A DNA stretch of 64,000 nucleotides. Source: Agelas oroides. Taxonomy: Eukaryota > Porifera > Demospongiae > Agelasida > Agelasidae. The notes under the pieces are model-generated. The model did not search any database. It saw only the letters and a list, made by a program, of their open reading frames with translations, and was not told where the DNA came from. The stretch covers positions 5,033,928 to 5,097,927 of the forward strand of contig OX422185.1 of assembly GCA_949130485.1 (NCBI GenBank), in the 5' to 3' direction. Shown piece after piece: positions 3,191 through 58,973 of this stretch. Every line of letters starts with the position of its first letter. Positions within the stretch are counted from its first letter, which is position 1. A program made the translations under genes and the position numbers.

Positions 3191-3264
3191 GACCCAGTTA
3201 AAACTAGGTCTTCCAAAAATTTTCCACATACGGTATGGAGACACACATACCACTCATGTTATAT
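3191..3264 (-). ncRNA. Sm-class snRNA-like RNA gene (unit 3.2 kb)
   Basis: Read on the minus strand, a canonical Sm site AATTTTTGG (3221-3213) is followed by a hairpin GACCTAGTTTTAACTGGGTC (3210-3191), an 8-bp stem with a UUUA loop. A TATA box lies 64 nt upstream of the Sm site, so a transcript of roughly 70-75 nt is expected; the 5' end is set at about 28 nt from the TATA and is approximate. The 5' part contains GTATGTGG directly before the Sm site, which could be a splice donor as in a spliced-leader RNA. Sm site plus 3' hairpin is the standard 3' architecture of U snRNAs and SL RNAs. The variable part matches no U RNA I can recognise. Confidence 0.6.
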
Positions 3265-3285
3265 ACAAACAGTCACCCAGCTGTC

Positions 3286-3413
3286 TTTATATACTGTGGC
3301 TTGTTTCTAACACTTGTGGGTTTGTGTGATGTCATGGATCAATATTCATTGCAGTGTGTGATATTCATTGACAGTTTATTAGTATTCATTGACAATATGT
3401 GAGCTGTGAATCT
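3286..3413 (-). promoter_or_regulatory. snRNA-type promoter (unit 3.2 kb)
   Basis: On the minus strand: TATATAAA at 3293-3286, preceded by the PSE-like block around ACCCACAAGTGTTAGAAAC, a CRE variant (TGACATCA) and three ATGAATA motifs. Spacing of the conserved block and TATA fits the proximal-sequence-element plus TATA arrangement of snRNA genes. The E-box CAGCTG just after the TATA is shared with several other units. Confidence 0.55.
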
Positions 3414-3453
3414 GCTCATACAATGTGCACCAACCCTAGTTCCCAGGCTCACC

Positions 3454-3511
3454 TAGCCTCGTACCCAGGCTCCTCCCTGCTTTTCTGCATGAGAGCCTGG
3501 GTATGAGGCTA
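3454..3511. mobile_element. 58-bp TAGCCTCG mini-element
   Basis: The ends TAGCCTCGTACCCAGGCT and AGCCTGGGTATGAGGCTA are inverted repeats and the flanks are a perfect 8-bp duplication, GGCTCACC. The same insertion is present in unit 2 (11989-12046) and, diverged, at 19798-19859, so it predates the segmental duplications. Confidence 0.8.
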
Positions 3512-4672
3512 GGCTCACCCACTCTGGAGCCTGAATATTCCCAGGCAGGGAGACCTACCTTGGTATCTTGTGAGCATGATGTGATCGGAAAAGGGTTATA
3601 CATTTGCAAAACAAAAGGCAACATTTTGTGGACTGTTCAACCAGCTATACGTTCAATGCTTGGTGTGTAGAATATTTGCCTCCACTAGCTGGATATGTGT
3701 AGTCAGTTGCTCAGTACTTTTGCTCTTTTTGATGCTCTGAGCCTCCATGCTTTCTACCACCATTCTACCTTTGGTGTCGCTCACATGAGGAAAAACACTA
3801 GGCTCTCCCTGCCTTCACAATTGCCATGTTTGCGTGCCAGACCACCATTGGTATAAATAGTGTAGAACTCAACCATTCTTTTACTCTTTGATTAGCGTTC
3901 ACAACTAGGGTACATGCAAGCAGAAAGCCTGCCAAAACCGTGACATACATTTGAAATTACACGTGGGAGTGAGACTGCAACACGACTACCAAGCCTCGAG
4001 CATCACTACACTTAGGTCACGCCTCTTAGTATGTCACGCCTCCTACACCCAACCATTACGATTACCAAGCGATTACCAAGCCTTGCTCCGCTTCACTGCG
4101 GTCGGCAATAATACACAATAACAGAAGGGTGGTGAAAAATAGGCCGGAGATCATCATCACAATGGTACAATGCATACACACACATGTACACACACATACA
4201 CACACACACACACACATCCACAGATTACAGTGCCACCCTGCGACAGCCTCACTTATGCTGTCTTGCCCCTTACCCACATCCTTAACCTCCCTCACCTGAT
4301 TTTTTTCCCTTTCTACTCTGCAACAGTCTCCCTTACAACACCTGCAGCTTCAGGGAGGGATTTGGGAATCTGCCATTCTGACTCAGAGACCGCAGGGTTG
4401 TACTCTACTGGGGTAAAATGGAAGCAGAGGGGAGGTAGTACGTGTGACTCATGGGGACTTCAAAATGTGTAAAAAAAAATACACTAAAATTTATGTTAGG
4501 GAAACAATTAGAAAAGCTACACACAGTATATGACAGAAAAGAGGCAATGCAAAGTTCCAAACATTTGTGAACTAGTTCATGAACAGTTTTAGTGAGCAAA
4601 TAGTTCAGAACTGTTTGTGGACTAACAAATGTTCAACTATATGTACCGTACGTTCATGAACATTTGTTACAA
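3512..4672. other. Spacer with short (CA)n and palindromic patches
   Basis: No gene is supported. A (CA)n tract lies at about 4175-4217. Frames of 60-100 codons here are readings through the (CA)n and low-complexity sequence. A short repeat of GTTCATGAACA-type palindromes occurs near 4565-4670. Confidence 0.6.
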
Positions 4673-5322
4673 CCCTTTACCGACCAAAGACGCGTATACG
4701 TGTCATGCATAATTCACCGCTGAATGACCAATGACGCATATACGTGTCATGGGTACTTTGGTATGTTGTACGCGAGTTTCCGTCGACTGTAGCGATTTAT
4801 TAGGGACTATCTACGCTATTAATCATATTCATTGCACCCACCAGAAGCTAAACGTGCACAATGGAATTGCAAATAGACAACATACGAGCCGGAAGTTGAA
4901 CATTATGGGGTGTAAGACTCTAGCAATCGACAGGGCCGAGTTCATTGTGACCGATCTCGAGAAGTACACAAGCTATGAAGATGAAATAAACAGCAGCGTA
5001 GAGCTAAAAGAAAGCTCTAACTTCCATGCAGATTTCAATTGTACTGCCAAGTTATAAGTACTGGAACAGATCGAAAGTCGCGACTTCCGGTATCACAACT
5101 TCCGGTTTATTTCACAGCTTCTGCTTTAGCGATAAGCTTCAAAACTACAGTGAAGCTGGGCAAAGCCTAAGGTACTCCATTGCTTTTTACCAGAAGTTTG
5201 TAGCTGTTTTACAACTGGAGATATAATATGGAATACGCAACACGTTCTCTGAACCGTTTCGCTCATAATTATTATGGTTTTCTACGTTAACATTGCAATC
5301 ACGCGTTACGGTCGGTAAAGAG
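4673..5322. mobile_element. MITE with CCCTTTACCGACC ends
   Basis: The left end CCCTTTACCGACC is answered by an inverted GGTCGGTAAAGAG at 5322. Near the left end the motif GACGCRTATACGTGTCAT occurs twice, 44 bp apart, as if subterminal binding sites. The related element at 50716-51333 has TTAA flanks, suggesting a piggyBac-like family; here the flanks are not TTAA. The interior has frames of 108 and 66 codons with no recognisable domain, and diverged homology to 31660-32110 where the frames are broken. Confidence 0.6.
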
Positions 5323-5465
5323 AGCAGACCACCGTACTGGTTGACCTGAAATGAGCAGAGCTGGTAACAGTAGTGGGATGCCGTCTCCTTCAGCAGAACA
5401 GTACAGTGGTTTTACTGCTATGAAACGTTTACAACATAATTCATGAGGTTGGCAAACTATGTTGA

Positions 5466-6697
5466 TTAGTGCTGCTACTCATAGTACTAGCCTCTGGTTA
5501 GCCTTCCCCACCAGTTTTAGTGCTGCTACTCATAGTACCAGCCTCTGGTTAGCCTTCCCCACCAGTTTTAGTGCTGCTACTCATAGTACTAGCCATCTGG
5601 TTAGCCTTCCCAACCAGTTTTAGTGCTGCTACTCATAGTACTAGCCTCTGGTTAGCCTTCCCCACCAGTTTTAGTGCTGCTACTCATAGTACTAGCCTCT
5701 GGTTAACCTTCCCCACCAGTTTTAGTGCTGCTACTCATAGTACCAGCCTCTGGTTAGCCTTCCCCACCAGTTTTAGTGCTGCTACTCATAGTACTAGCCT
5801 CTGGTTAGCCTTCCCCACCAGTTTTAGTGCTGCTACTCATAGTACTAGCCTCTGGTTAACCTTCCCCACCAGTTTTAGTGCTGCTACTCATAGTACCAGC
5901 CTCTGGTTAGCCTTCCCCACCAGTTTTAGTGCTGCTACTCATAGTACCAGCCTCTGGTTAGCCTTCCCCACCAGTTTTAGTGCTGCTACTCATAGTACTA
6001 GCCTCTGGTTAGCCTTCCCCACCAGTTTTAGTGTTGCTACTCATAGTACCAGCCTCTGGTTAACCTTCCCCACCAGTTTTAGTGCTGCTACTCATAGTAC
6101 TAGCCATCTGGTTAGCCTTCCCCACCAGTTTTAGTGCTGCTACTCATAGTACTAGCCTCTGGTTAGCCTTCCCCACCAGTTTTAGTGTTGCTACTCATAG
6201 TACCAGCCTCTGGTTAACCTTCCCCACCAGTTTTAGTGCTGCTACTCATAGTACTAGCCATCTGGTTAGCCTTCCCCACCAGTTTTAGTGCTGCTACTCA
6301 TAGTACTAGCCTCTGGTTAGCCTTCCCCACCAGTTTTAGTGTTGCTACTCATAGTACCAGCCTCTGGTTAACCTTCCCCACCAGTTTTAGTGCTGCTACT
6401 CATAGTACTAGCCATCTGGTTAGCCTTCCCCACCAGTTTTAGTGCTGCTACTCATAGTACTAGCCTCTGGTTAGCCTTCCCCACCAGTTTTAGTGCTGCT
6501 ACTCATAGTACCAGCCTCTGGTTAGCCTTCCCCACCAGTTTTAGTGCTGCTACTCATAGTACTAGCCTCTGGTTAGCCTTCCCCACCAGTTTTAGTGCTG
6601 CTACTCATAGTACCAGCCTCTGGTTAACCTTCCCCACCAGTTTTAGTGCTGCTACTCATAGTACTAGCCATCTGGTTAGCCTTCCCCACCAGTTTAA
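5466..6697. repeat. 51-bp minisatellite, about 24 units
   Basis: Each unit has the form AGTGCTGCTACTCATAGTAC, then YAGCCTCTGGTTARCCTTCC, then CCACCAGTTTT. Because 51 is divisible by three, the array reads as a repeating 17-residue frame on the plus strand. Units with CATCTGG instead of CTCTGG (52 bp) shift the frame and stop it, so selection for a protein is unlikely. Unit 2 carries only about 17 units. Confidence 0.95.
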
Positions 6698-6790
6698 AGC
6701 AAGGGAAAGCTCTAAAAACGTGGCCACACTGTGCTCAGCAGCCCAATTACACAGAACCACACCTACCAGAAATGCACTGAAAACCTCTTA

Positions 6791-7851
6791 TTAGTATAAT
6801 TAACAGCATGGTTTCGAGTGCAATTTGGGATTAATAGCATGAGTGAATGGCTGATAATTGCACGAGGCGAAGCCGAGTGCAATTATGCCATTCATGAGTG
6901 CTATTAATCCCAAATTGCATGAGAAAACATGCTGTTACTTGTTAATCATAAACTTCGCCTAGTTTACAGTATGCTATAATAAGTATGAGTATGTATGTGA
7001 TGTGGTGGTTTATAGTATACAAGTTTACAGTAAACTGTATAGTTTACACCAAATTGTTGTCACTTACAAGTTACAAGTTTACATTATGTTAATATAGTTT
7101 ACAGCAAATTGTTGTTGCTTACAAGTTACAAGTTTACATTATGTTAATATAGTTTACAGCAAATTGCTACTGACCAATCAGTGAGCGATTACACCTTGCA
7201 CGGTTTTGTAGTTTTTGTATTTTTTGTCCAATGAGAATCTTTCCTACCTGTGCAATTACAAAAATAATTGCACACCTTTCTATGGGAGTAAATGTATTGA
7301 CACTAAATAAGTATATGATTAGTATAATTAACAGCATGGTTTCGAGTGCAATTTGGGATTAATAGCTCGAGTGAATGGCTGTTAATTGCACGAGGTGAAA
7401 GCCGAGTGCAATTATGCCATTCATGAGTGCTATTAATCCCAAATTACACGAGAAAACATGCTGTTACTTGTTAATCATATACTCTGCCTAGTTTACAGTA
7501 TGCTATAATAAGTATGAGTATGTATGTGATGTGGTGGTTTATAGTATACAAGTTTACAGTAAACGGTATAGTTTACACCAAATTGTTGTCACTTACAAGT
7601 TACAAGTTTACATTATGTTAATATAGTTTACAGCAAATTGTTGTCGCTTACAAGTTACAAGTTTACATTATGTTAATATAGTTTACAGCAAATTGCTACT
7701 GACCAATCAGTGAGCGATTACACCTTGCACGGGTTTTGTATTTTTTGTATTTTTTGTCCAATCAGAATCTTTCCTACCTGTGCAATTACAAAAATAATTG
7801 CACACCTTTCTATGGGAGTAAATGTATTGACACTAAATAAGTATATGATTA
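6791..7851. mobile_element. Two tandem copies of a 530-bp hairpin element
   Basis: Each copy begins TTAGTATAATTAACAGCATG with a 150-bp near-palindromic head (GTGCAATTTGGGATTAATAG answered by its inverse) and ends near AATAAGTATATGATTA. The interior has CAAGTTACAAGTTTACATTA direct repeats and a GACCAATCAG box. Single copies are at 14967-15627 (with a roughly 90-bp extra segment) and 26505-27032. The copies share the ATGATTAGTATAATTAAC junction, consistent with tandem duplication. Confidence 0.75.
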
Positions 7852-7866
7852 TAGCTACAATTATGT

Positions 7867-7990
7867 TATAGATAAACCACAGTAGACAGGGATTTATCGT
7901 CCATAAACCACCCGAGCCCGAGGGCGCAGCCCGAGGGCGAGGGTTGTTTATGGACCATAAATCCCTGTCTACTGTGGTTTATCTGTTATA
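7867..7990. mobile_element. 124-bp palindromic foldback
   Basis: TATAGATAAACCACAGTAG on the left is matched by CTACTGTGGTTTATCTGTTA on the right around a GC-rich core with GCCCGAGGGCG twice. It is absent from unit 2 together with flanking bases to about 8245. The flank at 7990-8060, read on the minus strand, resembles the CCAAT/TATA-bearing repeat at 21120-21300. Confidence 0.65.
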
Positions 7991-8249
7991 TTCTCCACTC
8001 TGATTGGTCCTTGTTGTTATTAGTAAATACACATGGTAGTTTTCACTGTAAACAAGGTATGTTATTAGTAAACATGTAAAGTAATTTACACTCTAAACAA
8101 GGTAGCTTATAGGAAACACCATTAAATTACAACTTCCTGTGGTATATGGAACAGAATCTACAGAATCTACAACTTCCTGTCAGTATATGGAAAATAATAC
8201 CCACCTGTTACCACAGAAACAAGGGTGAAGTGGAGTATATACTAGTAAT

Positions 8250-8840
8250 CCATCCCAGAGTTCAAATAAAATAAAGACTAAGAGCTCCTGATATACATGA
8301 ATCAGCAAAACTCCCCAGGGGTATATTAGTTAGCAAGTGCTATTGAACAGTAATGGTCTACCAATTACCGACCGCATCTCTGTTTTTACTTTTCTGGTTT
8401 GAGACAAAGAATTTGAGACAAAGACTAATAGGCAGGTCATTATCGGTCTAAGAACACAGCAGAGACAGAGCTTGAACATTGTTAGTGGGTGGATACAACA
8501 TAAGGTACAATCTTATGGTTTATGTATCTAGCGCCCCTCCCCTCTTGTCACATTGTAATGTTCCCAACTTGTGATATACAACATGAAATTCTCACAGAAT
8601 TATTGAAGAAGACATGAAATATTTCAAGACCATATGATTCAGAAACTGAAATTTCATGTGGTCATTAAATACTTCACACTTTGTTCAACTAGTTTTGTTA
8701 TGTTATATTTCGTGTACAAACACTTGACGCAAGTTTTCACATTTCCATATGAAGGAAGTGAAATGCACTGAACAGCAAGTGACAGCACATGCATCACGTG
8801 CTTATAGGTGAGATGTGCTGAACAAGTGGGCACAAGTACA
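8250..8840. other. Spacer 3' of the 8.9-kb RNA unit
   Basis: No gene or repeat is recognised; the region is near-identical in unit 2 (15650-16255). Confidence 0.4.
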
Positions 8841-8844
8841 TATA

Positions 8845-8920
8845 GACCCAGTACAGAACCAGGTCTTCCAAAAATTTTTAAGTATACCAAACAGCAAGAT
8901 GCATATGACTCCAGCAGAAC
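8845..8920 (-). ncRNA. Sm-class snRNA-like RNA gene (unit 8.9 kb)
   Basis: On the minus strand the Sm site AATTTTTGG (8876-8868) is followed by the hairpin formed by GACCTGGT and ACTGGGTC (8865-8845), 8 bp with two G-U pairs. The TATA box is 65 nt upstream. The variable 5' part differs completely from that of the 3.2-kb unit and contains GTTTG followed by GTATAC 14 nt before the Sm site, a possible splice donor. An almost identical copy is at 16262-16335. It could be an snRNA-like or spliced-leader-like RNA; the identity of the variable region is unknown to me. Confidence 0.6.
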
Positions 8921-8941
8921 AACATACATTGTAGCAGCTGT

Positions 8942-9029
8942 CCTTATATACCCAGGCTTGTTTCCAACACTTGTGGGTTTTGTGAAATATTCATTGACAG
9001 TTTTCAAGCTATTCATTGAGCTGTGAATA
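8942..9029 (-). promoter_or_regulatory. snRNA-type promoter (unit 8.9 kb)
   Basis: The minus strand carries TATATAAGG (8950-8942), the conserved CCCACAAGTGTTGGAAACAA block just upstream and two ATGAATA octamer-like motifs. No CRE is present. CAGCTG follows the TATA box. Confidence 0.55.
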
Positions 9030-9179
9030 CTAGGAATGCTAGATAAATCTGTGTTGCAGTGACACTGCATGTGTGTGCATTAGTGAAGTTGAAAAATAGG
9101 TGGGAATCGTACTTGTCTATTATAATCTCTTATAAGCAATTGAGGATATAGTGCGTCATAATTTAGTTCTATACTGAGT

Positions 9180-10093
9180 ATATATGTTCCGCGCAATCTG
9201 AGAATTTGCGCAATCTCGAGATTGCGTTGCGCATTCTCAGAATCCCGAGATTGCGTTCTAACCTCGAGATTGCACAGGCAATCTGGAGATTGCGTAACAC
9301 ATGTGCGCAATCTGGAGATTGCGTAACACATGTGCGCAATCTGGAGATTGCGTAATACGCGTGCGCAATCTGGAGATTGCGTAACATGTGTGCGCAATCT
9401 ACGAACTTTGCCTGTACGCCCGACAGTGAGTGATCTACTGTGTAGCTCGCAGGATGGAAGACATCCTTGATAAGCGGCGTCTACCTCCATAGGAGGCATA
9501 CTGCGATCTGGAAGAGGTGGTAATGCTGTGTATTGATGAGCAACAGAAGAGAAGGTCGCGTTCGAAGTTTGCCTGTCGATCGTAGTTGGCCACAGTCAGC
9601 TTATATGCCACATGCTACTGGTTCAATCGAGTGTATACTATCTAATTGTGTCAGCGACAGTTGAAACGTACCTTCGCTGAAACTGTCAGCCATCTTTTGC
9701 GTGTATTATTGGTCATTTTCAGGTACACAGCGGGTACCCGCGTTTCCACCATTGTAGCTGAGTAAGGCAGGTTTGTTTTCAACCAAGCTAAGCCAAACTA
9801 TCATTGCCTGAACTCTGCTATTTTACAAGATATAACGCAAATTATGAATCAACACTACACAAAGTCGCCATTTTTTAGTAGCTTCTCGAGATGGTTTCTG
9901 CACATGCGCGTTGGGGTAAAAGAGATTGCGCACTATACTTGCGCAATCTCGAGTTAGCGCAATGTAGTGCGCAATCTCGAGATTGCGCAAGTATAGTGCG
10001 CAATCTCGAGATTAGAACGCAATCTCGGGATTCTGAGAATGCGCAACGCAATCTTGAGATTGCGCAAATTCTCAGATTGCGCGGAACATATAT
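9180..10093. mobile_element. Element with palindrome-array terminal repeats
   Basis: The terminal inverted repeats start ATATATGTTCCGCGC at 9180 and end GCGCGGAACATATAT at 10093. Each terminus is an array of the perfect palindrome GCGCAATCTCGAGATTGCGC and variants (GCAATCTGGAGATTGC), about eight per side. The interior, 9530-9930, is homologous to 50890-51330 and 48950-49260. Frames reading RNLQIAH-type repeats are products of the array. An identical element is at 16597-17510. Confidence 0.7.
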
Positions 10094-10145
10094 GTACATG
10101 CAACACGTAGCAACCGCAATCACTCGTTGATTTTTCAGTTTCACC

Positions 10146-10188
10146 AACACACACACACACACACACGCACACACACATGCACACACGC

Positions 10189-10249
<61 letters not shown>
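10146..10249. repeat. (CA)n microsatellite
   Basis: Nearly pure CA repeat with a few CG and TG interruptions. The homologous tract in unit 2 (17563-17702) is 36 bp longer, which makes it the fastest-changing part of the duplication. Confidence 0.95.
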
Positions 10250-10252
<3 letters not shown>

Positions 10253-10554
10253 CAACTGCGATCACTCATGTCAATTTTGAAAGACAGCTGCACAGAGACA
10301 ACCTGGATAAGACCAGCCAGCTGACTGCATTTTGTGAAGGAGTTATCTCACAGCCACCCAGTGGAGCTGATGAGGCCTGGTATTGGCTGCAACACATCCT
10401 GCACAGAGCATGACTTTGCATAACAGGTTATTTTTCAGGGAGATGTGGTTCATTGATTGCTCATGCTAAATACAGCTATAGTTCATTTAGGTTGTTCAAA
10501 CTTCTAGTCATTGGAAAAGTACTCCTTCCGATCAAGGCAAGACTATGGGTTTTG

Positions 10555-11125: not shown

Positions 11126-11748
11126 GGGTTTTAGTCCCTTTAAACTCCCAACCCATACCTACTACAGAAAGAGCAGGACTACTCCCCAACCTAAAAGCTT
11201 TTTTTGTTACAGTTAAGATTAGAAGGGGCCGAACTCACTATAATGGAGGGCTTGGTACAGTTTTACTACTCCGAACTCAGTCTATAGGGGGCAATATCAA
11301 GTTCGAAGGGGCCGAACTCACTGTGATGGAGAGTATGGTACAGTTCGATAGTTAACTAAAACAACACTGGTAGCTACGTCACGTTCTTAGGATGTATGCT
11401 TATATAACACCCTAGCTTACGTCACATCCTAGCTCAGAACGTCTGTGTAACATTCTAAGCTACCAGGCTCTTTTTTCTCCACCAAATGGGGAGAGAGCCT
11501 GGAAGATCTGATAACGTGCCCTGTGATGTACTATGTGTGGTTTTTATAATCGAATTATTGCCCACGCAGTACATACTCAGTGTTATAAGTGCTACACAGC
11601 CCTTGTAGTTCTGGATGTCGCTGAGACTACAGATCGGGACAAAACAGTTTTTACTTGCATCCATCGTGTGAAAAACATTCCAGACATTCTCTATACAACT
11701 CTGTCAGCAACCCTCCCTCCAATGAAGGATTGGGGAAGATAGTTTGTA
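11126..11748. other. Spacer with GGGGCCGAACTCAC repeats and a partial element
   Basis: Around 11220-11355 a segment absent from the paralog at 35.5 kb contains GAAGGGGCCGAACTCACT twice. 11480-11740 matches one end of the long-TIR family at 1205 and 49471. No gene is supported. Confidence 0.5.
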
Positions 11749-11810
11749 GACCCAGTTAAACTAGGTCTTCCTAAAATTTTCCTGATTTTGTCACAATGCT
11801 CACACCACTA
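11749..11810 (-). pseudogene. Decayed snRNA-like RNA unit (11.8 kb)
   Basis: The hairpin (GACCTAGTTTAACTGGGTC) is intact but the Sm site reads AATTTTAGG and the TATA box is missing; the sequence passes straight from CAGGGTA to CAGCTG. With both the TATA box and the Sm site damaged it is unlikely to make a stable RNA. The PSE-like block and a perfect CRE (11869-11876) remain. An equally decayed copy is at 19558-19620. Confidence 0.6.
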
Positions 11811-11834
11811 ACCAGAAATCAGTCACCCAGCTGT

Positions 11835-11948
11835 ACCCTGGTTTGTTCCTAACACTTGTGGGTTTGTGTGACGTCATATAGCATGGTAGTGTGTCATATT
11901 CATTGACAGTTTATTAGTATTCATTGACAATATGTGAGCTGTGAATCT
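11835..11948 (-). promoter_or_regulatory. snRNA-type promoter lacking TATA
   Basis: The CCCACAAGTGTTAGGAACAA block, the CRE TGACGTCA and ATGAATA motifs are present, but no TATATAA. The duplication junction (11890/11891) falls inside this promoter. Confidence 0.5.
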
Positions 11949-11988
11949 GCTCATACAATGTGCACCAACCCTAGTTCCCAGGCTCACC

Positions 11989-12046
11989 TAGCCTCGTACC
12001 CAGGCTCCTCCCTGCTTTTCTGCATGAGAGCCTGGGTATGAGGCTA
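11989..12046. mobile_element. 58-bp TAGCCTCG mini-element (unit 2 copy)
   Basis: Identical to 3454-3511, with the same GGCTCACC target duplication. Confidence 0.8.
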
Positions 12047-13207
12047 GGCTCACCCACTCTGGAGCCTGAATATTCCCAGGCAGGGAGACCTACCTTGGTA
12101 TCTTGTGAGCATGATGTGATCGGAAAAGGGTTATACATTTGCAAAACAAAAGGCAACATTTTGTGGACTGTTCAACCAGCTATACGTTCAATGCTTGGTG
12201 TGTAGAATATTTGCCTCCACTAGCTGGATATGTGTAGTCAGTTGCTCAGTACTTTTGCTCTTTTTGATGCTCTGAGCCTCCATGCTTTCTACCACCATTC
12301 TACCTTTGGTGTCGCTCACATGAGGAAAAACACTAGGCTCTCCCTGCCTTCACAATTGCCATGTTTGCGTGCCAGACCACCATTGGTATAAATAGTGTAG
12401 AACTCAACCATTCTTTTACTCTTTGATTAGCGTTCACAACTAGGGTACATGCAAGCAGAAAGCCTGCCAAAACCGTGACATACATTTGAAATTACACGTG
12501 GGAGTGAGACTGCAACACGACTACCAAGCCTCGAGCATCACTACACTTAGGTCACGCCTCTTAGTATGTCACGCCTCCTACACCCAACCATTACGATTAC
12601 CAAGCGATTACCAAGCCTTGCTCCGCTTCACTGCGGTCGGCAATAATACACAATAACAGAAGGGTGGTGAAAAATAGGCCGGAGATCATCATCACAATGG
12701 TACAATGCATACACACACATGTACACACACATACACACACACACACACACATCCACAGATTACAGTGCCACCCTGCGACAGCCTCACTTATGCTGTCTTG
12801 CCCCTTACCCACATCCTTAACCTCCCTCACCTGATTTTTTTCCCTTTCTACTCTGCAACAGTCTCCCTTACAACACCTGCAGCTTCAGGGAGGGATTTGG
12901 GAATCTGCCATTCTGACTCAGAGACCGCAGGGTTGTACTCTACTGGGGTAAAATGGAAGCAGAGGGGAGGTAGTACGTGTGACTCATGGGGACTTCAAAA
13001 TGTGTAAAAAAAAATACACTAAAATTTATGTTAGGGAAACAATTAGAAAAGCTACACACAGTATATGACAGAAAAGAGGCAATGCAAAGTTCCAAACATT
13101 TGTGAACTAGTTCATGAACAGTTTTAGTGAGCAAATAGTTCAGAACTGTTTGTGGACTAACAAATGTTCAACTATATGTACCGTACGTTCATGAACATTT
13201 GTTACAA

Positions 13208-13857: not shown

Positions 13858-14000
13858 AGCAGACCACCGTACTGGTTGACCTGAAATGAGCAGAGCTGGT
13901 AACAGTAGTGGGATGCCGTCTCCTTCAGCAGAACAGTACAGTGGTTTTACTGCTATGAAACGTTTACAACATAATTCATGAGGTTGGCAAACTATGTTGA

Positions 14001-15627: not shown

Positions 15628-16261
15628 ATAGCTACAATTATACTAGTAATCCATCCCATAGTTCAAATAACATGTGGGTACAAAATAAAGACTAAGAGCT
15701 CCTGATATACATAACATGAATCAGCAAACTCCCCAGGGGTATATTAGTTAGCAAGTGCTATTGAACAGTAATGGTCTACCAATTACCGACCGCATCTCTG
15801 TTTTTACTTTTCTGGTTTGAGACAAAGAATTTGAGACAAAGACTAATAGGCAGGTCATTATCGGTCTAAGAACACAGCAGAGACAGAGCTTGAACATTGT
15901 TAGTGGGTGGATACAACATAAGGTACAATCTTATGGTTTATGTATCTAGCGCCCCTCCCCTCTTGTCACATTGTAATGTTCCCAACTTGTGATATACAAC
16001 ATGAAATTCTCACAGAATTATTGAAGAAGACATGAAATATTTCAAGACCATATGATCCAGAAACTGAATTTCATGTGGTCATTAAATACTTCACACTTTG
16101 TTCAACTAGTTTTGTTATGTTATATTTCGTGTACAAACACTTGACGCAAGTTTTCACATTTCCATATGAAGGAAGTGAAATGCACTGAACAGTAAGTGAC
16201 AGCACATGCATCACGTGCTTATAGGTGAGATGTGCTGAACAAGTGGGCACAAGTACATATA

Positions 16262-16335
16262 GACCCAGTACAGAACCAGGTCTTCCAAAAATTTTTAAGT
16301 ATACCAAACAGCAAGATGCATATGACTCCAGCAGA
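16262..16335 (-). ncRNA. Sm-class snRNA-like RNA gene (unit 16.3 kb)
   Basis: Duplicate of the 8.9-kb unit: Sm site at 16293-16285, hairpin at 16282-16262 and TATA 65 nt upstream. The transcribed part is unchanged from the first copy, so both copies could be expressed. Confidence 0.6.
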
Positions 16336-16358
16336 ACAACATACATTGTAGCAGCTGT

Positions 16359-16446
16359 CCTTATATACCCAGGCTTGTTTCCAACACTTGTGGGTTTTGT
16401 GAAATATTCATTGACAGTTTTCAAGCTATTCATTGAGCTGTGAATA
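16359..16446 (-). promoter_or_regulatory. snRNA-type promoter (unit 16.3 kb)
   Basis: TATATAAGG at 16367-16359, then the conserved ACAAGTGTTGGAAACAAGC block and two ATGAATA motifs, as in the 8.9-kb unit. Confidence 0.55.
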
Positions 16447-17562: not shown

Positions 17563-17705
<143 letters not shown>

Positions 17706-19232: not shown

Positions 19233-19557
19233 ACATCTTGATAGAGCTAGAAAATACAAAATGTTAGCCTCGTACCCAGCCTCCCCCCAGAAAAATGGGG
19301 AGAGAGCCTGGAAGATCTGATAACGTGCCCTGTGATGTACTATGTGTGGTTTTGATAATCGAATTATTGCCCACGCAGTACATACTCAGTGTTATAAGTG
19401 CTACACAGCCCTTGTAGTTCTGGATGTCGCTGAGACTACAGATCGGGACAAAACAGTTTGTACTTGCATCAGTCACGTGAAAAACATTCCAGACATTCTC
19501 TATACAACTCTGTCAGCAACCCTCCCTCCAATGAAGGATTGGGGAAGATAGTTTGTA

Positions 19558-19760
19558 GACCCAGTTAAACTAGGTCTTCCTAAAATTTTCCTGATTTTGT
19601 CACAATGCTCACACCACTAACCAGAAATCAGTCACCCAGCTGTACCCTGGTTTGTTCCTAACACTTGTGGGTTTGTGTGACGTCGTATAGCATGGTAGTG
19701 TGTCATATTCATTGACAGTTTATTAGTATTCATTGACAATATGTGAGCTGTGAATCTGCT
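19558..19760 (-). pseudogene. Decayed snRNA-like unit with promoter (19.6 kb)
   Basis: Copy of the 11.8-kb unit: hairpin at 19576-19558, mutated Sm site AATTTTAGG, no TATA box, PSE-like block at about 19650-19675. The CRE has also changed to TGACGTCG. Confidence 0.55.
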
Positions 19761-20424: not shown

Positions 20425-20464
20425 TGTAAAGCAAGGAGAGTATATGTGTATTTGCAGATATGTA

Positions 20465-20554
20465 GACCTAGTCATACTAAGTCTTCCAAAAATTTTTTTT
20501 TCCAATTCGGAAATAATACCTGCCAATAAACGCACAGGTAGTCCTGATTGCCTA
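20465..20554 (-). ncRNA. Sm-class snRNA-like / candidate SL RNA gene (unit 20.5 kb)
   Basis: Sm site AATTTTTGG (20494-20486) inside a T/A-rich run, hairpin GACTTAGT-ATG-ACTAGGTC (20483-20465, 8 bp). TATA box 83 nt upstream, longer than in most units. The variable part contains TTGGCAG followed by GTATTA (exon end at about 20520), and TACCTG upstream can pair with CAGGTA across that site, which is how spliced-leader RNAs hold their donor in stem I. This is the best spliced-leader-like unit. A (CA)n tract ends 50 bp downstream. Confidence 0.6.
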
Positions 20555-20577
20555 AGTAGTAATATACCACTGTAGCC

Positions 20578-20683
20578 TTTATATACTCCAGCCTGTTCGT
20601 AACAATTATGGGTTTTGTAGAACACATATTCATTGACAGTTTGGCTTATTCATTGACAGTTGATGAGCTGTGAATCTAGTTAT
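20578..20683 (-). promoter_or_regulatory. snRNA-type promoter (unit 20.5 kb)
   Basis: TATATAAA at 20585-20578, a diverged proximal block (CCCATAATTGTTACGAACAG) and two ATGAATA motifs, with no CRE. It matches the promoter at 58875-58973 almost exactly. Confidence 0.55.
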
Positions 20684-25730: not shown

Positions 25731-25731
25731 A

Positions 25732-25765
25732 GACCCAGTACAACTAGGTCATCCTAATCTAGTTA
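25732..25765 (-). pseudogene. snRNA-like unit without Sm site (25.7 kb)
   Basis: The hairpin GACCTAGT-TGT-ACTGGGTC (25750-25732) is intact, but the Sm site is degraded to GATTAGGAT and the TATA-to-hairpin distance is shortened by about 35 nt. The promoter looks complete. Probably not functional. Confidence 0.5.
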
Positions 25766-25790
25766 GATACTTCTGCCCAGCAGCAGCAGT

Positions 25791-25900
25791 CCTTATATAC
25801 TCAGCCTTGTTCGTAACAATTGTGGGTTTTGTTCCGGTGTGTGGCAGAATATTCATAGCAGATTATGAGATATTCATTGAGCTGTGAATGTAGTTATGAG
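25791..25900 (-). promoter_or_regulatory. snRNA-type promoter (unit 25.7 kb)
   Basis: TATATAAGG at 25799-25791, block CCCACAATTGTTACGAACAA, and ATGAATAT motifs; most similar to the fragment at 1-138. Confidence 0.5.
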
Positions 25901-29540: not shown

Positions 29541-29546
29541 TATGTA

Positions 29547-29608
29547 GATCCAGTTACAACTGGACCTTCCAAAAATTTGAACAGTAGTTAACTAAGTTGG
29601 TGCAAAAA
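29547..29608 (-). ncRNA. Sm-class snRNA-like RNA gene (unit 29.5 kb)
   Basis: Sm site AATTTTTGG (29577-29569) followed by hairpin GGTCCAGTTGTAACTGGATC (29566-29547). Relative to other units the third pair has switched from C-G to T-A and the fifth from T-G to C-G, keeping the stem, which is direct covariation support. The TATA-like box (TATTTAAA) is 55 nt upstream. No convincing donor is seen in the variable part near the Sm site. Confidence 0.6.
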
Positions 29609-29632
29609 CAACTGACCAACTCACCAGCTGTG

Positions 29633-29748
29633 TTTAAATACCCAGGCTTGTTCCGAACACTTATGGGTTTGTGTGACGTCACATGGTATAATATTCATTG
29701 CAGATGATAAGCTATGAATCCAGTCCAAGAAACTGTGAATGTAGTTAT
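29633..29748 (-). promoter_or_regulatory. snRNA-type promoter (unit 29.5 kb)
   Basis: TATTTAAA (29640-29633), the ACCCATAAGTGTTCGGAACA block, a perfect CRE TGACGTCA (29674-29681) and ATGAATAT. A 157-bp (CA)n tract begins 80 bp further upstream of the gene. Confidence 0.55.
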
Positions 29749-32537: not shown

Positions 32538-32570
32538 TGTGAATGCTGGAAGAAAGGGGGTTTGAATGTA

Positions 32571-32640
32571 GACCCAGATAAACCAGGTCTTCCAAAAATT
32601 CATAATCTTTCCTGGGAAGCCGTTGTCAAGGCTCTGGTCT
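32571..32640 (-). ncRNA. Sm-class snRNA-like RNA gene (unit 32.6 kb)
   Basis: Sm site AATTTTTGG (32600-32592), hairpin GACCTGG-TTTAT-CTGGGTC (32589-32571). TATA box 65 nt upstream of the Sm site. The variable part differs from every other unit and lacks a GT donor at the usual place (CCCAGGAAAGA), which argues against a spliced leader for this copy. Confidence 0.6.
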
Positions 32641-32665
32641 GCAATCAGTAGATTCAACATTTGTC

Positions 32666-32770
32666 TTTATATACCCTGGCCTTTTTGTAACAGTTATGGG
32701 TTTTGTGATCTTACAACCCTCATGTGGTAGAATATTCATTGCAGTTGTGAGCTATTCATTGAACTATGAA
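32666..32770 (-). promoter_or_regulatory. snRNA-type promoter (unit 32.6 kb)
   Basis: TATATAAA (32673-32666), block ACCCATAACTGTTACAAAAA, two ATGAATA motifs; no CRE. A (CA)n tract of 160 bp starts 23 bp beyond. Confidence 0.55.
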
Positions 32771-35932: not shown

Positions 35933-36047
35933 TACCTGCATGCCAAATATTCAAGGGAGGCTCCCCGAAAACAGGGTGACCTAAACACAAAACAGGGGAA
36001 AAAACACAATAATTTTATACTTAACTACATTCAAATCTTGATAGACC

Positions 36048-36590
36048 TAGGAAATACCCAAGTCTTCCAAAAATTTTTAAGACCAAAATTTAAAAGATGA
36101 AAATTTCAAATTTCTAACCGTGATCAAGAATGAAGTATTGTAAACAGCTGCTTATATACCCTAGTCTCGTCCCCAGACCTACTTTTTCGCGTGCACCCTG
36201 CGGACTCGTCGAAAAATAGGGTCTGGACACTTTCACTACGAAAACTGGGCAAGTTTACATACGGAGGTCAGTAAATTGGGTAATTGTAGGTGTTAATTAC
36301 ATTATCAGCTACCTGCAGCGGTTGCCTTGGCGCCAAGAATTTGCAAGCTGGCTATTTGTGATAACGTATAACACAATTTACTTCACCTGATCAATTTGAT
36401 TGGTGCGATAACATGCCAATACGCTCGTATGATTACACCCCAGTTTTACCAGTGAACATCTCCAGACTCTATTTTTCAACAAGGCCGCAGGGCGTGTGCG
36501 AAAAATTTGGTGTCTGGGGACAAGACTAATATACCCAGGCTCATTCCTAACACTTGTGGGTTTTGTGAAATATTCATTGAGCTATGAATA
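36048..36590 (-). pseudogene. snRNA-like unit split by a transposon (36.1-36.6 kb)
   Basis: A perfect Sm site AATTTTTGG (36075-36067) remains, but the following hairpin is lost (GACTTGGGTATTTCC). The TATA box (36158-36152) is separated from the proximal block and octamer motifs (36529-36590) by the 367-bp MITE at 36162-36528. With the promoter split this unit is presumably dead. Confidence 0.6.
36162..36528. mobile_element. TAGTCTCG-type MITE inserted in a promoter
   Basis: Ends TAGTCTCGTCCCCAGAC and GTCTGGGGACAAGACTA, flanked by a perfect 8-bp duplication ATATACCC (36154-36161 and 36529-36536). The duplicated bases are the TATA box region of an snRNA-like promoter, and intact paralogous promoters serve as empty sites. 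Confidence 0.9.
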
Positions 36591-37938: not shown

Positions 37939-37956
37939 TTCAATGGAGGGGGTATA

Positions 37957-38028
37957 GACCCAATCAAACGATTAGGTCTTCCAAAAATTCAACTATAAGT
38001 TGGCCATGTGATACAGTGCGATACTCAT
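37957..38028 (-). ncRNA. Sm-class snRNA-like RNA gene (unit 38.0 kb)
   Basis: Sm site AATTTTTGG (37989-37981) and a strong hairpin GACCTAATC-GTTT-GATTGGGTC (37978-37957), 9 bp. Compared with the GACCTAGTT/AACTGGGTC units, two pairs have changed on both sides (G-C to A-T and T-A to C-G), strong covariation support. TATA 61 nt upstream. The variable part is unique and has no donor near the Sm site. Confidence 0.65.
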
Positions 38029-38050
38029 CTAAGTTAGTGTACTACTGCAA

Positions 38051-38150
38051 TCTTATATACCCGGGCTTGTTCAGAACACTTATGGGTTTGTGCAGTGTCA
38101 TGTGGTAGAATATTCATTGCCAGTTTAAGATATTCATTGACATTGAATGC
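38051..38150 (-). promoter_or_regulatory. snRNA-type promoter (unit 38.0 kb)
   Basis: TATATAAGA (38059-38051), block ACCCATAAGTGTTCTGAACA, and two ATGAATA motifs. Confidence 0.55.
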
Positions 38151-46944: not shown

Positions 46945-47014
46945 GACCCAGCTATGAAAACTGGGATTTCCAAAAATTCACTTGTGGTAAGTAGAAAGGA
47001 ACGCTGGGAGAACT
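46945..47014 (-). ncRNA. Sm-class snRNA-like RNA gene (unit 47.0 kb)
   Basis: Sm site AATTTTTGG (46978-46970) and hairpin around CCCAG...CTGGG (46966-46945), with the outer two pairs lost. TATA 62 nt upstream. The variable part contains CTACTTACC 6 nt before the Sm site, complementary to a 5' splice site like the end of U1, though its position is wrong for U1. A paralog is at 54893-54960 with an almost identical variable part. Confidence 0.55.
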
Positions 47015-47040
47015 AGATCGCAATGTCACTCAACAGTCTT

Positions 47041-47140
47041 CCTTATATACCCTGGCTTGTTCGGAACACTTGTGGGTTTTGTGTGACGTCAGTGGTAAAA
47101 TATTCATTGACAGTGTGAGACTATTCATTAGCTATGAATC
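47041..47140 (-). promoter_or_regulatory. snRNA-type promoter (unit 47.0 kb)
   Basis: TATATAAGG (47049-47041), ACCCACAAGTGTTCCGAACA block, perfect CRE (47084-47091), and two ATGAATA motifs. Confidence 0.55.
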
Positions 47141-49470: not shown

Positions 49471-50386
49471 TAGCCTCGTACCCAGGCTCCTCCCCATGTA
49501 GAACAACGGGGAGAGAGCCTGGAAGATTTGATCACATGCCCCATGACGTACCGTGCGTGGTTTTGTGCATGGTTTTGATAATCGAATTATTGCCCACGCA
49601 ATCTGACTCGAAATATTGCCCAGCATTGTAAAATGCTAGACCATCGTTGTTGTTGGAGTTGTGGATGTTGCTGGGACTTACAGATCTGCTGTTTTACCGT
49701 TCAAGAGCTAGCTTGTAGGCTACAATAAGTGCAGCTTCTACCGAGGCTTTTACATAGCCGTGGGTCGTTCGGTTCAACGGGCGCTCGAGACGGTCGCCTT
49801 GTTGATGGTCACAGCGCTGGTTGCTGCTCACTGTGACAGCAAGGGGTCCTTCGAAGGCCACTATGAGTAACTGTGAGTTCTAAAAACTAGTTCCCAGGCT
49901 TGGTCACATAACTAACAAGCAAGAAGCTGGCTGGGGAACGAGCTTTGTAGAACCTACACAGCTTATAGCTTTATTGAACTTGTTTTTAGAACTCACAGTT
50001 ACTCATAGTGGCCTTCGAAGGACCCCTTGCTGTCACAGTGAGCAGCAACCAGCGCTGTGACCATCAACAAGGCGACCGTCTCGAGCGCCCGTTGAACCGA
50101 ACGACCCGCGGCTATGTAAAAGCCTCGGTAGAAGCTGCACTTATTGTAGCCTACAAGCTAGCTCTTGAACGGTAAAACAGCAGATCCGTAAGTCCCAGCA
50201 ACATCCACAACTCTAACAACAACGATGGTCTAGCATTTTACACTGCTGGGCAATATTTTGAGTCAGAGTGCGTGGGCAATAATTCGATTATCAAAACCAC
50301 GCACGGTATGTCACGAGGCACGTGATCAAATCTTCCAGGCTCTCTCCCCGTTGTTCTACATGGGGAGGAGCCTGGGTACGAGGCTA
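49471..50386. mobile_element. 916-bp near-perfect palindromic TAGCCTCG element
   Basis: Arms of about 410 bp (49471-49887 and 49982-50386) are inverted copies with few differences, around a 94-bp centre that itself has TTCCCAGGC/GGCTGGGGAA ends. Flanks are a perfect 9-bp duplication CTCACTTGC. Long inverted repeats with 9-bp duplications point to a Mutator-like non-autonomous element. The high arm identity suggests recent formation or gene conversion between arms. Confidence 0.9.
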
Positions 50387-51900: not shown

Positions 51901-51968
51901 GACCTAATTTGACTATTAGGTCTTCCAAAAATTCACCTTACAGGTAGGACACCTCAACATTGATAAAC
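51901..51968 (-). ncRNA. Sm-class snRNA-like RNA gene (unit 51.9 kb)
   Basis: Sm site AATTTTTGG (51933-51925) and hairpin GACCTAAT-AGTCAA-ATTAGGTC (51922-51901), a perfect 8-bp stem with a compensatory G-C to A-T change relative to the AGT/ACT units. TATA 59 nt upstream. The variable part ends CCTACCTGTAAGGTG before the Sm site; CT followed by GTAAGG is a plausible donor, and ACCT/AGGT can pair around it. Confidence 0.65.
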
Positions 51969-51992
51969 TTCTTCCCTGAGCACACCATGCTG

Positions 51993-52070
51993 TCTTATAT
52001 ACCCAGTCCTGTTCCTAACACTTATGGGTTTTGTGGAATACATTCATTGAGCTATGAATCTAGCTATGAG
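51993..52070 (-). promoter_or_regulatory. snRNA-type promoter (unit 51.9 kb)
   Basis: TATATAAGA (52001-51993), ACCCATAAGTGTTAGGAACA block and one ATGAATG motif; no CRE. Confidence 0.5.
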
Positions 52071-54892: not shown

Positions 54893-54960
54893 GACCCAGC
54901 TATGAAAACTGGGATTTCCAAAAATTCACTTGTGGTAAGTAGAAACGCTGGGAGAACTAG
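54893..54960 (-). ncRNA. Sm-class snRNA-like RNA gene (unit 54.9 kb)
   Basis: Paralog of the 47.0-kb unit: Sm site 54926-54918, hairpin 54914-54893, TATA 58 nt upstream. The two differ by a 5-bp deletion in the GTTCCTTTCTAC part and a few substitutions, while Sm site and hairpin are unchanged. Confidence 0.55.
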
Positions 54961-54984
54961 ATCGCAACGTCACTCAACAGCTGT

Positions 54985-55110
54985 CCTTATATACCCTGGC
55001 TTGTTCGGAACACTTGTGGGTTTTGTGTGACGTCGTGGTAAAATATTCATTGATAGTGTGAGACTATTCATTATCTATGAATCTATTCATTAGCTATGAA
55101 TCTAATTATA
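54985..55110 (-). promoter_or_regulatory. snRNA-type promoter (unit 54.9 kb)
   Basis: TATATAAGG (54993-54985), ACCCACAAGTGTTCCGAACA block, CRE altered to TGACGTCG, and three or four ATGAATA motifs. Confidence 0.55.
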
Positions 55111-58169: not shown

Positions 58170-58268
58170 ATGGCTTTTGTTGACCAGGGTGAATTTGAAG
58201 CTATGAAGACGCTGAGTGGTTGGGAAGCTGAGCGCTGTGATGAGCATCCGTTTCATGCTAAAATCAAG
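58170..58268 (+). CDS. Candidate first exon, 33 codons
   Basis: MAFVDQGEFEAMKTLSGWEA is followed by 13 more codons to AAG, then GTGAGT, a consensus splice donor in phase 0. An upstream ATGGCG at about 58125 would make a 13-codon upstream frame. Codon texture looks coding, but no domain is recognised and no downstream exon could be found by eye. It may be the start of a gene running on to the right, or chance. Confidence 0.3.
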
Positions 58269-58269
58269 G

Positions 58270-58689
58270 TGAGTACTTGAGCCGTTTTCGAGTTATTGTC
58301 GTTTGACAAGTGGTCTGAACAAAGAAAGAAAGAAAGAAGAAAGAATACGAAAAATGGTACTTTTGCTACCGCACACTTTTGCGTTTAGCTGTCTTCCGCG
58401 TGGCTTTTGGCCACTTATATGAGTCTTGCTGATCACAAAGGCACTCAAAGAGGATGTCTGGGCTCTTAAATAAGCTTTTAGCGTGTTTGTGGTGAAGTTA
58501 TACGGCTTTTGCATATATTGCGCGTCGGCGCCATCCCTACATAGAGAGTCTACCGACTCTCTGATATGCCGTAGTGTTGATCCAATTTGGGGAGCGGATA
58601 TGTGTACTGTGTCAACATTGTGGGAACAGGCCAGAGTGGCACTACCCACATGCATGTGTGCATACTAGTCTCGTCCCCAGATCCCATCC
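58270..58689. other. Putative intron or spacer
   Basis: Purine-rich GAAAGAAAGAAAGAAGAAAG near 58322; nothing else recognised. Confidence 0.35.
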
Positions 58690-58722
58690 ACACACATGCA
58701 CGAGCACACACACACACATACA
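58690..58722. repeat. Short (CA)n
   Basis: CACACACAT-type tract 45 bp downstream (3') of the 58.8-kb RNA unit. Confidence 0.85.
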
Positions 58723-58765
58723 CAGAGAATGAAAAGCAAGGAGAGTATATGTGTGCTGATGTGTA

Positions 58766-58850
58766 GACCTTGTTATACTAGGTCTTCCAAAAATTTATTT
58801 CGACTTTATACCTGTTGACAACCCACAGTAAGCACCGATTGCCCAAGAGT
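58766..58850 (-). ncRNA. Sm-class snRNA-like / candidate SL RNA gene (unit 58.8 kb)
   Basis: Sm site AATTTTTGG (58795-58787), hairpin GACCTAGT-ATA-ACAAGGTC (58784-58766, one mismatch). TATA 79 nt upstream. Paralog of the 20.5-kb unit: the variable parts align only around GGCAATC and a donor-like CAACAG followed by GTATAA. The donor position is kept while the rest has diverged strongly, as would fit a conserved splice donor. Confidence 0.6.
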
Positions 58851-58874
58851 GGTCTTTATCACAATGTAGTAGCC

Positions 58875-58973
58875 TTTATATACTCCAGCCTGTTCGTAAC
58901 AATTATGGGTTTTGTAGAACACATATTCATTGACAGTTTAGGTTATTCATTGACAGTTGATTAGCAGTGAATC
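58875..58973 (-). promoter_or_regulatory. snRNA-type promoter (unit 58.8 kb)
   Basis: TATATAAA (58882-58875), CCCATAATTGTTACGAACAG block, two ATGAATA motifs. Almost identical to the 20.5-kb promoter even though the variable RNA part is not. Confidence 0.55.

Follow-up and report, generated by a model that had tools for sequence, protein, structure and literature searches.

A large family of putative Sm-class RNA genes with gene-specific 5′ segments in the genome of the sponge Agelas oroides

The analysed window, a 64,000-nt stretch of the Agelas oroides genome, contains eleven compact units in which a PSE-like block and a TATA box are followed by a variable part, an Sm site and a 3′ hairpin. 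All eleven were found where an earlier, sequence-only reading of this DNA had placed them and in the order of elements that it had described, and the four pairs of hairpin arms which it had quoted are correct; the measured hairpins, however, span 7-10 bp instead of the claimed 8-9 bp, and the minus strand, which had been assigned solely to the unit at 58766, is that of all eleven. The Sm-site sequence AATTTTTGG lies 63-91 nt from the start of the TATA box in each unit, and the box itself reads TATATAA in 10 of the 11 and TATTTAA in the unit at 29547. Unit 1, with AATTTTTGG at 3221, has a 5′ segment of 42 nt, that of unit 4 extends to 61 nt, and the hairpin arms of unit 5 are GGTCCAGTT and AACTGGATC. 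Units 2 and 3 (at 8845 and 16262) are the copies of one segmental duplication and hence not independent, unit 10 is a close paralogue of unit 8, and units 4 and 11 have an identical promoter and differing 5′ segments. A twelfth unit, missing from the earlier list, has a poor PSE with 6 of 15 matches. When up to six mismatches are allowed, 18 PSE-like sites are present in the window, of which 11 head the reported units and seven head no complete unit, one of the seven being cut by the window edge; the sites at 56423, 46401 and 36563 have no unit attached. Three decayed copies, two of them duplicates of each other, are listed together with the units in Table 1. No Rfam family was matched within the window at the gathering threshold.

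Table 1 Positions of the units and decayed copies in the window.
Feature	Span	Strand	PSE	TATA	Predicted TSS	Sm site	Hairpin end	Remarks
Unit 1	3190..3323	-	3323	3293	3263	3221	3190	
Unit 2	8844..8980	-	8980	8950	8920	8876	8844	
Unit 3	16261..16397	-	16397	16367	16337	16293	16261	
Unit 4	20464..20615	-	20615	20585	20555	20494	20464	
Unit 5	29546..29670	-	29670	29640	29610	29577	29546	TATTTAA
Unit 6	32570..32703	-	32703	32673	32643	32600	32570	
Twelfth unit	36043..36188	-		36158		36075	36043	Not in earlier list
Unit 7	37956..38089	-	38089	38059	38029	37989	37956	
Unit 8	46947..47079	-	47079	47049	47019	46978	46947	
Unit 9	51901..52031	-	52031	52001	51971	51933	51901	
Unit 10	54895..55023	-	55023	54993	54963	54926	54895	
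Unit 11	58765..58912	-	58912	58882	58852	58795	58765	
Decayed copy	11748..11865	-	11865					AATTTTAGG and hairpin; without TATA
Decayed copy	19557..19674	-	19674					AATTTTAGG; without TATA; duplicate of copy at 11865
Decayed copy	25731..25829	-	25829					TATA and hairpin; without Sm site

The units belong to a family of well over a hundred small genes in the genome, which occur far above chance. The PSE-TATA promoter pattern has 228 genome matches, the pattern of an Sm site plus stem 209 and the strict pattern TATA-N45..75-AATTTTTGG 137, each with none in the control, and AATTTTTGGAAGACC is matched 122 times as opposed to none for the backward pattern. The elements also occur together when only one of them is used for selection. 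An Sm site with at most one mismatch is located 40-110 nt downstream in 47 of the 50 promoter-selected loci (47 distinct stretches), compared with 4 of 1896 background windows; the match is perfect in 36 of these loci, has one mismatch in 11 and two in 2, and is lacking in one. Likewise, PSE and TATA are present in 19 of the 25 Sm-selected loci whose promoter status was not known beforehand, the six without a promoter including one with its stretch cut. A larger Sm-selected set gives 40 of 48, a figure in which 21 of the 48 loci had been fetched for a listed promoter and 2 despite none being listed. The set of 97 units referred to below does not include 18 promoter-like matches for which no Sm site qualified. 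Neither the promoter pattern nor the TATA-gap-Sm pattern has matches in viral contigs, and the sole TATA-gap-Sm match in genome contigs, which belongs to a Bacteroidetes MAG and lacks a PSE, was judged to be due to chance.

The family promoter has clear counterparts in the same genome. A PSE of the AAACCCA or AGACCCA type is found upstream of all 10 distinct U5 and all 7 distinct U1 regions examined, and ATGAAT precedes 8 of the former and each of the latter. Of the 12 U5 rows displayed, 9 combine AACCCA at -60 with TATA at -30, corresponding to 7 of 10 distinct genes, and from this spacing the start of the family RNAs is predicted near TATA+31. A distal element, CAATGAAT, is present in 83 of 96 units and in 46 of 3000 window stretches. 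An snRNA-type PSE/TATA promoter had been proposed previously, and the occurrence of the same PSE and TATA in U1 and U5 upholds that proposal; a putative Pol II-type snRNA promoter consisting of PSE, TATA and distal element is therefore supported for the family genes. Downstream of the hairpin no 3′ box was recognised by eye, and TCCTTG occurs in 10 of 94 downstream stretches versus 1.4 shuffled, with paralogues kept in the set.

At the other end of the units, AATTTTTGGA is found in 85 of the 97, a part of which were selected by that very motif, and the Sm site has a mean probability of 0.58 of being unpaired, in real and shuffled context alike. The 3′ hairpin was followed with a model searched against 81 of 98 loci, all but the 17 loci L001-L008, L017, L021, L035, L061-L063, L086, L093 and L094. 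In 90 distinct rows from 81 loci outside the training set of the model, 95.1% of the hairpin cells are paired and 29 cells carry a double change, compared with 7.9 after shuffling (0 of 500 shuffles). Arms pair better with their own partners (5.62) than when swapped (4.75, sd 0.11), the covariation is weak in the inner five stem positions (2.46 versus 2.24, sd 0.08), and in the 90 rows from 81 loci another measure, which counts the pairs showing a double change, does not reach significance. The covariation originally noted for a few hairpins is thus maintained in loci outside the training set. Judging by these elements, the family very probably consists of genes for Sm-class RNAs, which are likely expressed and would bind Sm proteins.

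The predicted RNAs are mostly 61-90 nt in length, about 72 nt, which supports the length of about 70-90 nt first suggested, and the length quartiles of the 5′ segment are 37-44 nt. Over most of its length the segment has at most about 0.2 bits of shared information per position across the 97 units, in accordance with the replaceable, hypervariable 5′ part of the sequence-only reading. Disjoint paralogue pairs were chosen under a set rule, which required 100 or more flank columns and gave precedence to the pairs with the most columns; it yielded 24 pairs from 152 unit-spanning alignments, and in 21 of them the 5′ segment has diverged beyond the aligned flanks, in 19 at p<0.05 and with several bodies near the random level beside flanks of 0.75-0.92 identity. 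The pairs W_47076/W_55020, L062/W_32700 and L005_1613/L005_2876 have no such excess; against the downstream flank alone, the segment is more diverged in 15 of 18 pairs. The downstream flanks likewise diverge fast, and in blast alignments the flanks are cut back to stretches that are still similar; diversifying selection is therefore not proven. As a whole, the 5′ segments are no more structured than shuffles, and a folded 5′ domain or a miRNA-like precursor was rejected on these grounds. The two ends of the segment differ from the shuffled level, with helices of at least 5 bp at the RNA 5′ end in 21 of 81 against 30.0 (sd 3.7) and helices of at least 4 bp at the Sm-proximal end in 36 of 81 against 22.5 (sd 3.7), several offsets and thresholds having been tried for these counts.

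Two of the 5′ segments, one of them from unit 11, were searched genome-wide and matched only themselves at the sensitivity of the tool, so that no target of long complementarity is visible for the two, and for the same two an origin elsewhere in the genome was rejected. For 85 segments, the complementarity to U5 equals that of shuffles, and only three of the 85 stand out in complementarity of at least 10 nt to U6, where 0.25 would be expected (sd 0.59). The top 5-mers, TCCGT and CTTCC, occur in 10 of 85 segments each versus 2.0 and 2.7, respectively, which over 1024 tests is unconvincing as a common targeting motif.

The near absence of positional information and of a convincing common motif, the uniqueness of the two searched segments and the fast divergence of the downstream flanks would also fit expressed Sm-class RNAs in which only the Sm site and the 3′ hairpin matter, for example by forming a structural Sm RNP or by acting as a sink for Sm/SMN, and in which the 5′ part is a neutrally drifting spacer. 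We consider this rather unlikely, as the body has diverged beyond the flanks in most of the disjoint pairs, the length of the segment is fairly uniform and the RNA 5′ end has few helices.

The genomic arrangement could alternatively bring to mind precursors of piRNA-like small RNAs, analogous to the nematode type I 21U loci, since 40 of 54 perfect promoter matches fall within C3 4.1-5.03 Mb, every one with an snRNA-type promoter to itself. The 21U loci, to our knowledge, have neither an Sm site nor a 3′ hairpin. They do give rise to many unique short transcripts in megabase clusters, and the nematode piRNA promoter derives from an snRNA promoter (PMC6436959, in excerpt), but the precursors are about 28 nt in length and the C. 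elegans loci number more than 15,000 (PMC7917550, in excerpt), as opposed to hundreds of family matches. A conserved Sm site and a covarying hairpin would presumably be unnecessary for such precursors, and the start region, which is C-poor at TATA+31, has only a weak pyrimidine preference at TATA+30 and lacks the T excess at +33 expected for a YRNT start. A piRNA-like origin is improbable on the whole.

There is a similarly small chance that the family is a decaying tandem one, most members being copies of an snRNA-like gene that are dead or hardly expressed. Decayed copies and recent segmental duplications are present, and six of the 25 Sm-selected loci lack a promoter, one through its cut stretch; yet PSE, TATA, Sm site and hairpin pairing are jointly kept in most copies, the intervening segment is not, and the changes in the stem are compensatory.

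A sponge counterpart of the nematode SmY RNAs, functioning as splicing or trans-splicing cofactors, is very unlikely. The SmY model of 80 positions (RF01844) has an Sm site and a 3′ hairpin, as does the family, which in part also has a hairpin on the 5′ side of the Sm site, and a lax scan gave sub-threshold matches in 3 of 39 distinct loci (L089 28.9, L052 23.5 and L046 21.3 bits). At the gathering score of 39 bits the model has no match in the window, and the best of the 39 distinct loci reaches 28.9. SmY RNAs, however, are described as conserved in their first stem-loop and as encoded by twelve C. elegans genes (PMC11229312, in excerpt), in contrast to the hypervariable 5′ part and more than 100 full-pattern matches of the family. 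The family 5′ part is unconserved and has only a weak excess of helices next to the Sm site. Spliced-leader RNAs, which likewise combine an Sm site, a 3′ hairpin and an snRNA promoter and had been put forward as an alternative with hypervariable leaders, are hardly credible, since splice donors are not enriched in the 97 5′ segments (GTRAG in 8 versus 8.3 shuffled, AGGTR 9 versus 7.0) and neither a leader nor a donor position is conserved in them.

The best explanation as a whole, which we favour tentatively, is a large, clustered and locally duplicated family of Sm-class snRNA-type genes with individual, probably base-pairing 5′ arms. Each complete gene would be driven by a separate Pol II-type snRNA promoter, in most cases with the distal CAATGAAT followed by PSE and TATA. 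Its predicted RNA of about 72 nt would comprise a 5′ segment of about 41 nt that is peculiar to the gene, followed by the Sm site AAUUUUUGG and the covarying 3′ hairpin; part of the 5′ segments also form a short hairpin directly next to the Sm site. The Sm ring and the 3′ hairpin would make a stable RNP, the individual arm would pair with a target RNA in the manner of U7 or HSURs, and duplication together with fast change of the arm would create a repertoire. The 5′ arm may be guide-like and act as a base-pairing specificity segment, at slightly less than even odds. That an animal genome encodes more than 100 Sm-ring guide RNAs, with the arm replaced or hyperdiversified in each gene and serving genome defence or regulation, is a more speculative possibility. 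If true, such a guide repertoire would be an RNA-based recognition system apart from the piRNA, miRNA and CRISPR kinds, and a new way of building an RNA repertoire in which promoter, Sm site and 3′ hairpin are kept and the 5′ arm differs in nearly every copy; the Sm-class RNAs otherwise known to us are few and mostly conserved.

Among known systems, the family shares with U1 and U5 of the same genome the AAACCCACAAGTGTT-kind PSE at about -60 and the TATA at about -30, and with U1 also the Sm site AATTTTTGG, whereas the displayed U1 copies are nearly identical along the RNA and the family is mostly unconserved 5′ of the Sm site. The U7 snRNA, about 60 nt in length, is similarly built of a 5′ arm, an Sm-type site and a 3′ hairpin, but it has a special Sm site and a single arm sequence; the U7 model RF00066 has no match in the genome, the controls likewise giving none. 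The dictyostelid Class I RNAs, which are about 60 nt long and encoded in multiple copies, have an snRNA-type element at a distance of about 60 nt upstream, and they resemble the family in that their stem is conserved and covaries whereas their body is variable (PMC7919456, in excerpt). Their stem, in contrast, joins the 5′ and 3′ ends, they carry an 11-nt motif and are mainly cytoplasmic, the available part of their description mentions no Sm site, and they belong to a different eukaryotic group (PMC7919456). Identity with them was rejected, as the family stem lies 3′ of the Sm site and a common 5′ motif is absent. Finally, the HSURs of Herpesvirus saimiri are Sm-class RNAs reported to bind host miRNAs and mRNAs (PMC13158664, PMC6763288 and PMC9226524, all in excerpt); the family would be of the same Sm class, but where the HSURs are a few viral RNAs, it is a host gene family with putative pairing of its arms.

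That the snRNA-like units are genes of a large Sm-class RNA family is a well-supported prediction. In a search of the 259-Mb genome, in which the same patterns read backward served as the control and matched nowhere, the 15-mer AATTTTTGGAAGACC was found 122 times, the PSE and TATA pattern with at most three mismatches 228 times, AATTTTTGGRAGRYC 209 times and GTATATAA-N45..75-AATTTTTGG 137 times. The 54 perfect PSE and TATA matches are distributed unevenly, with 40 in the 4.1-5.03 Mb interval of contig C3 and the others on the rest of C3 and on contigs C5, C10, C11, C21 and C43. Since the units were gathered via either their promoter or their Sm half, the opposite half was tested. In a promoter-selected sample of 50 loci (the first 30 of the listing and 20 hand-chosen outlying loci, together 47 distinct stretches), the Sm site was perfect in 36, had one mismatch in 11 and two in 2, and was absent from one, compared with 4 of 1896 background windows carrying the site at no more than one mismatch; a hairpin of -5 kcal/mol or lower was found in 47 of the 50. 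Conversely, PSE and TATA were present in 19 of 25 Sm-selected loci of promoter status not known beforehand, one of the six others being cut off.

Each of the 11 units that the sequence-only reading had listed in the window was confirmed, every one on the minus strand and in the order PSE, TATA, variable segment, AATTTTTGG and hairpin, and the four quoted pairs of hairpin arms are correct. One extra unit was found. The window has 18 PSE-like sites, 11 of which head the reported units and seven of which are decayed, incomplete or edge-cut. Units 2 and 3 are copies from a single segmental duplication. An Rfam scan of the window gave no match at the gathering threshold. A homology search with the death-effector-domain frame of the window returned 73 proteins, its own included and several of them encoded on contigs of equal length, which suggests an expanded family.

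Features of the window in addition to the 11 reported units
Feature	Window coordinates	Strand	Description
Extra snRNA-like unit	36158 (TATA)		weak PSE
Segmental duplications	3347-10446 and 11882-17899		near-identical; carry units and repeat arrays; copy spacing ~7.4 and 8.5 kb
Tandem repeat arrays	5466-6695 and 14001-14871		51-nt repeats yielding long open frames
Long inverted repeat	30243-31243		foldback-element-like; 465-nt arms, 99%
Long inverted repeat	49565-50304		foldback-element-like; 329-nt arms, 98%
Death-effector-domain open frame	43161-44564	-	PF01335
Truncated neighbour of this frame	45008-45322	-	

Elsewhere in the assembly, contig C141 (22,436 bases) is a mitochondrial genome. 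Its cox1 (loci L115 and L116) contains TGA codons and is split into two pieces separated by a LAGLIDADG-type frame, atp9 adjoins cob, and the gene order includes nad6-nad3-trnR-nad4L-cox1-trnS...trnC-nad1, where names other than cox1 and the tRNAs were read from translations. Such gene content and order are typical of demosponges.

The U1 and U5 genes of this genome (17 matches over the cut-off and 2 under it for U1, 10 matches for U5) have a PSE of the family's kind, AAACCCACAAGTGTTTCG in U1 and AAACCCACAAGTGTTAGGTTCA in some U5, whereas that of the best U6 match is more diverged (11/22 matches). An AAACCCA or AGACCCA core is located upstream of all 10 distinct U5 and all 7 distinct U1 genes, with ATGAAT farther upstream in 8 and 7 of them, respectively. 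In the family, a distal CAATGAAT is present at a median of 32 nt ahead of the PSE core in 83 of the 96 units whose upstream stretch is of sufficient length, versus 46 of 3000 window stretches. Seven of the 10 distinct U5 genes have AACCCA at -60 together with TATA at -30, the remaining three having TATA at -31 to -33, and this spacing places the predicted start of the family RNA near TATA+31, a position at which a pyrimidine followed by a non-C is weakly preferred among the units. The U1 Sm site is AATTTTTGG, as in the family, and the U5 genes (L099-L108) apparently carry AATTTGTTG at the expected position. A run of five T is expected to stop Pol III, and because the Sm site has one, the family would likely be transcribed by Pol II.

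With the start near TATA+31, the 5′ segment would measure 19-65 nt (median 41, quartiles 37-44; 97 units) and the RNA up to the hairpin end 53-94 nt (median 72; 94 units). When a hairpin model built from 12 window units was run on 81 of the 98 family loci L001-L098, it gave 91 matches, 90 of them distinct. The proposed covariation of the 3′ hairpin holds in loci beyond these 12 units: in the alignment of the 90 matches, which is fitted to the model, 29 double-change cells were counted against 7.9 in shuffles, 95.1% of cells are paired against 89.6, and the covariation score is 0.299 against 0.210, with neither the first nor the last value reached in 500 shuffles. The number of hairpin pairs with a double change (4 versus 3.1, with at least as many in 118 of 500 shuffles) is not significant. 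In an alignment-free test of 91 distinct ends, 5′ arms pair better with their own 3′ side than with that of another unit (5.62 versus 4.75, sd 0.11; highest value in 200 shuffles 5.09); the inner five stem positions alone are weaker (2.46 versus 2.24, sd 0.08; highest value in 500 shuffles 2.47). Within 45 nt 3′ of the hairpin, TCCTTG occurs in 10 of 94 units versus 1.4 in shuffles, with paralogues left in, and is possibly a 3′-end signal.

Information content in the 5′ segment itself does not exceed ~0.2 bits per position between TATA+19 and the third nt ahead of the Sm site, and rises to 0.4-0.6 in the last two nt (97 units). Paralogue pairs are alike in promoter and Sm-hairpin and changed in the segment. 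In L016_1534 and L016_2770, the distal upstream flank is 93.9% identical over 131 nt and the promoter and Sm-hairpin 100%, with the segments at 51% (random 49%); L069 and L077 are 65% identical in the segment and 96% downstream. AACACTTRTGGGTTT, which is the PSE core in reverse complement, occurs in the segment of each of the latter two. Under a fixed rule of disjoint pairs with at least 100 flank columns, 21 of 24 pairs have a lower identity in the segment than in the flanks, whose identity Blast trimming biases upward (sign p 0.0003; p<0.05 for 19 of the pairs). Compared with the downstream flank alone, the segment is less identical in 15 of 18 (p 0.008). W_47076/W_55020, L062/W_32700 and L005_1613/L005_2876 lack excess divergence, and some copies retain the segment, as in three units with almost identical 5′ segments at G000:C3:5153923, 5170896 and 5226547 (near 5.15, 5.17 and 5.23 Mb of C3). 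Of 48 diverged pairs, 39 first depart from each other at TATA+8 to +20. This lies ahead of the predicted start, so the variable block would be somewhat longer than its predicted transcribed part.

The most likely mechanism, which we advance tentatively as a candidate judged from sequence, is that the individual 5′ arm would act by base pairing. The main rival is that the arm is a neutral spacer. No k-mer is convincingly common among 85 non-redundant segments, two segments searched genome-wide each matched itself alone, and the entire segment folds at shuffled level. The final 20 nt 5′ of the Sm site fold better (-1.78 versus -1.21 shuffled, sd 0.12), 36 of 81 segments have a helix of 4 bp or more directly abutting the site (22.5 expected, no more than 31 in any of 100 shuffles), and helices of at least 5 bp at the RNA 5′ end are rarer (21 of 81 versus 30.0 expected, sd 3.7). 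As several offsets and thresholds were tried, the Sm-proximal excess and the apparently helix-poor 5′ end are suggestive. Perfect complements of at least 10 nt to U6 occur in 3 of the 85 segments (0.25 expected, sd 0.59), small numbers from several tests. Among 39 loci, the best SmY score was 28.9 bits against a gathering threshold of 39, and this reading is considered unlikely; SmY RNAs have a conserved first stem-loop, according to excerpts of PMC11229312. A U7 search of the genome gave no matches, its controls likewise matching nowhere. The spliced-leader alternative raised earlier was not borne out, splice-donor motifs being no commoner than in shuffles.

Among the open-licence entries listed, which for one query were 12 of 290, there was no such sponge family and no hypervariable snRNA-like family, though one may still be in print. 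Sm RIP-seq in fly and human has reported snRNAs, scaRNAs and mRNAs, according to excerpts of PMC4053861. In organisation, nematode piRNA loci and dictyostelid Class I RNAs, as described in excerpts of PMC6436959 and PMC7919456, respectively, are the nearest to the family, whereas in the proposed mode of action the nearest, as far as excerpted accounts describe them, are the HSURs.
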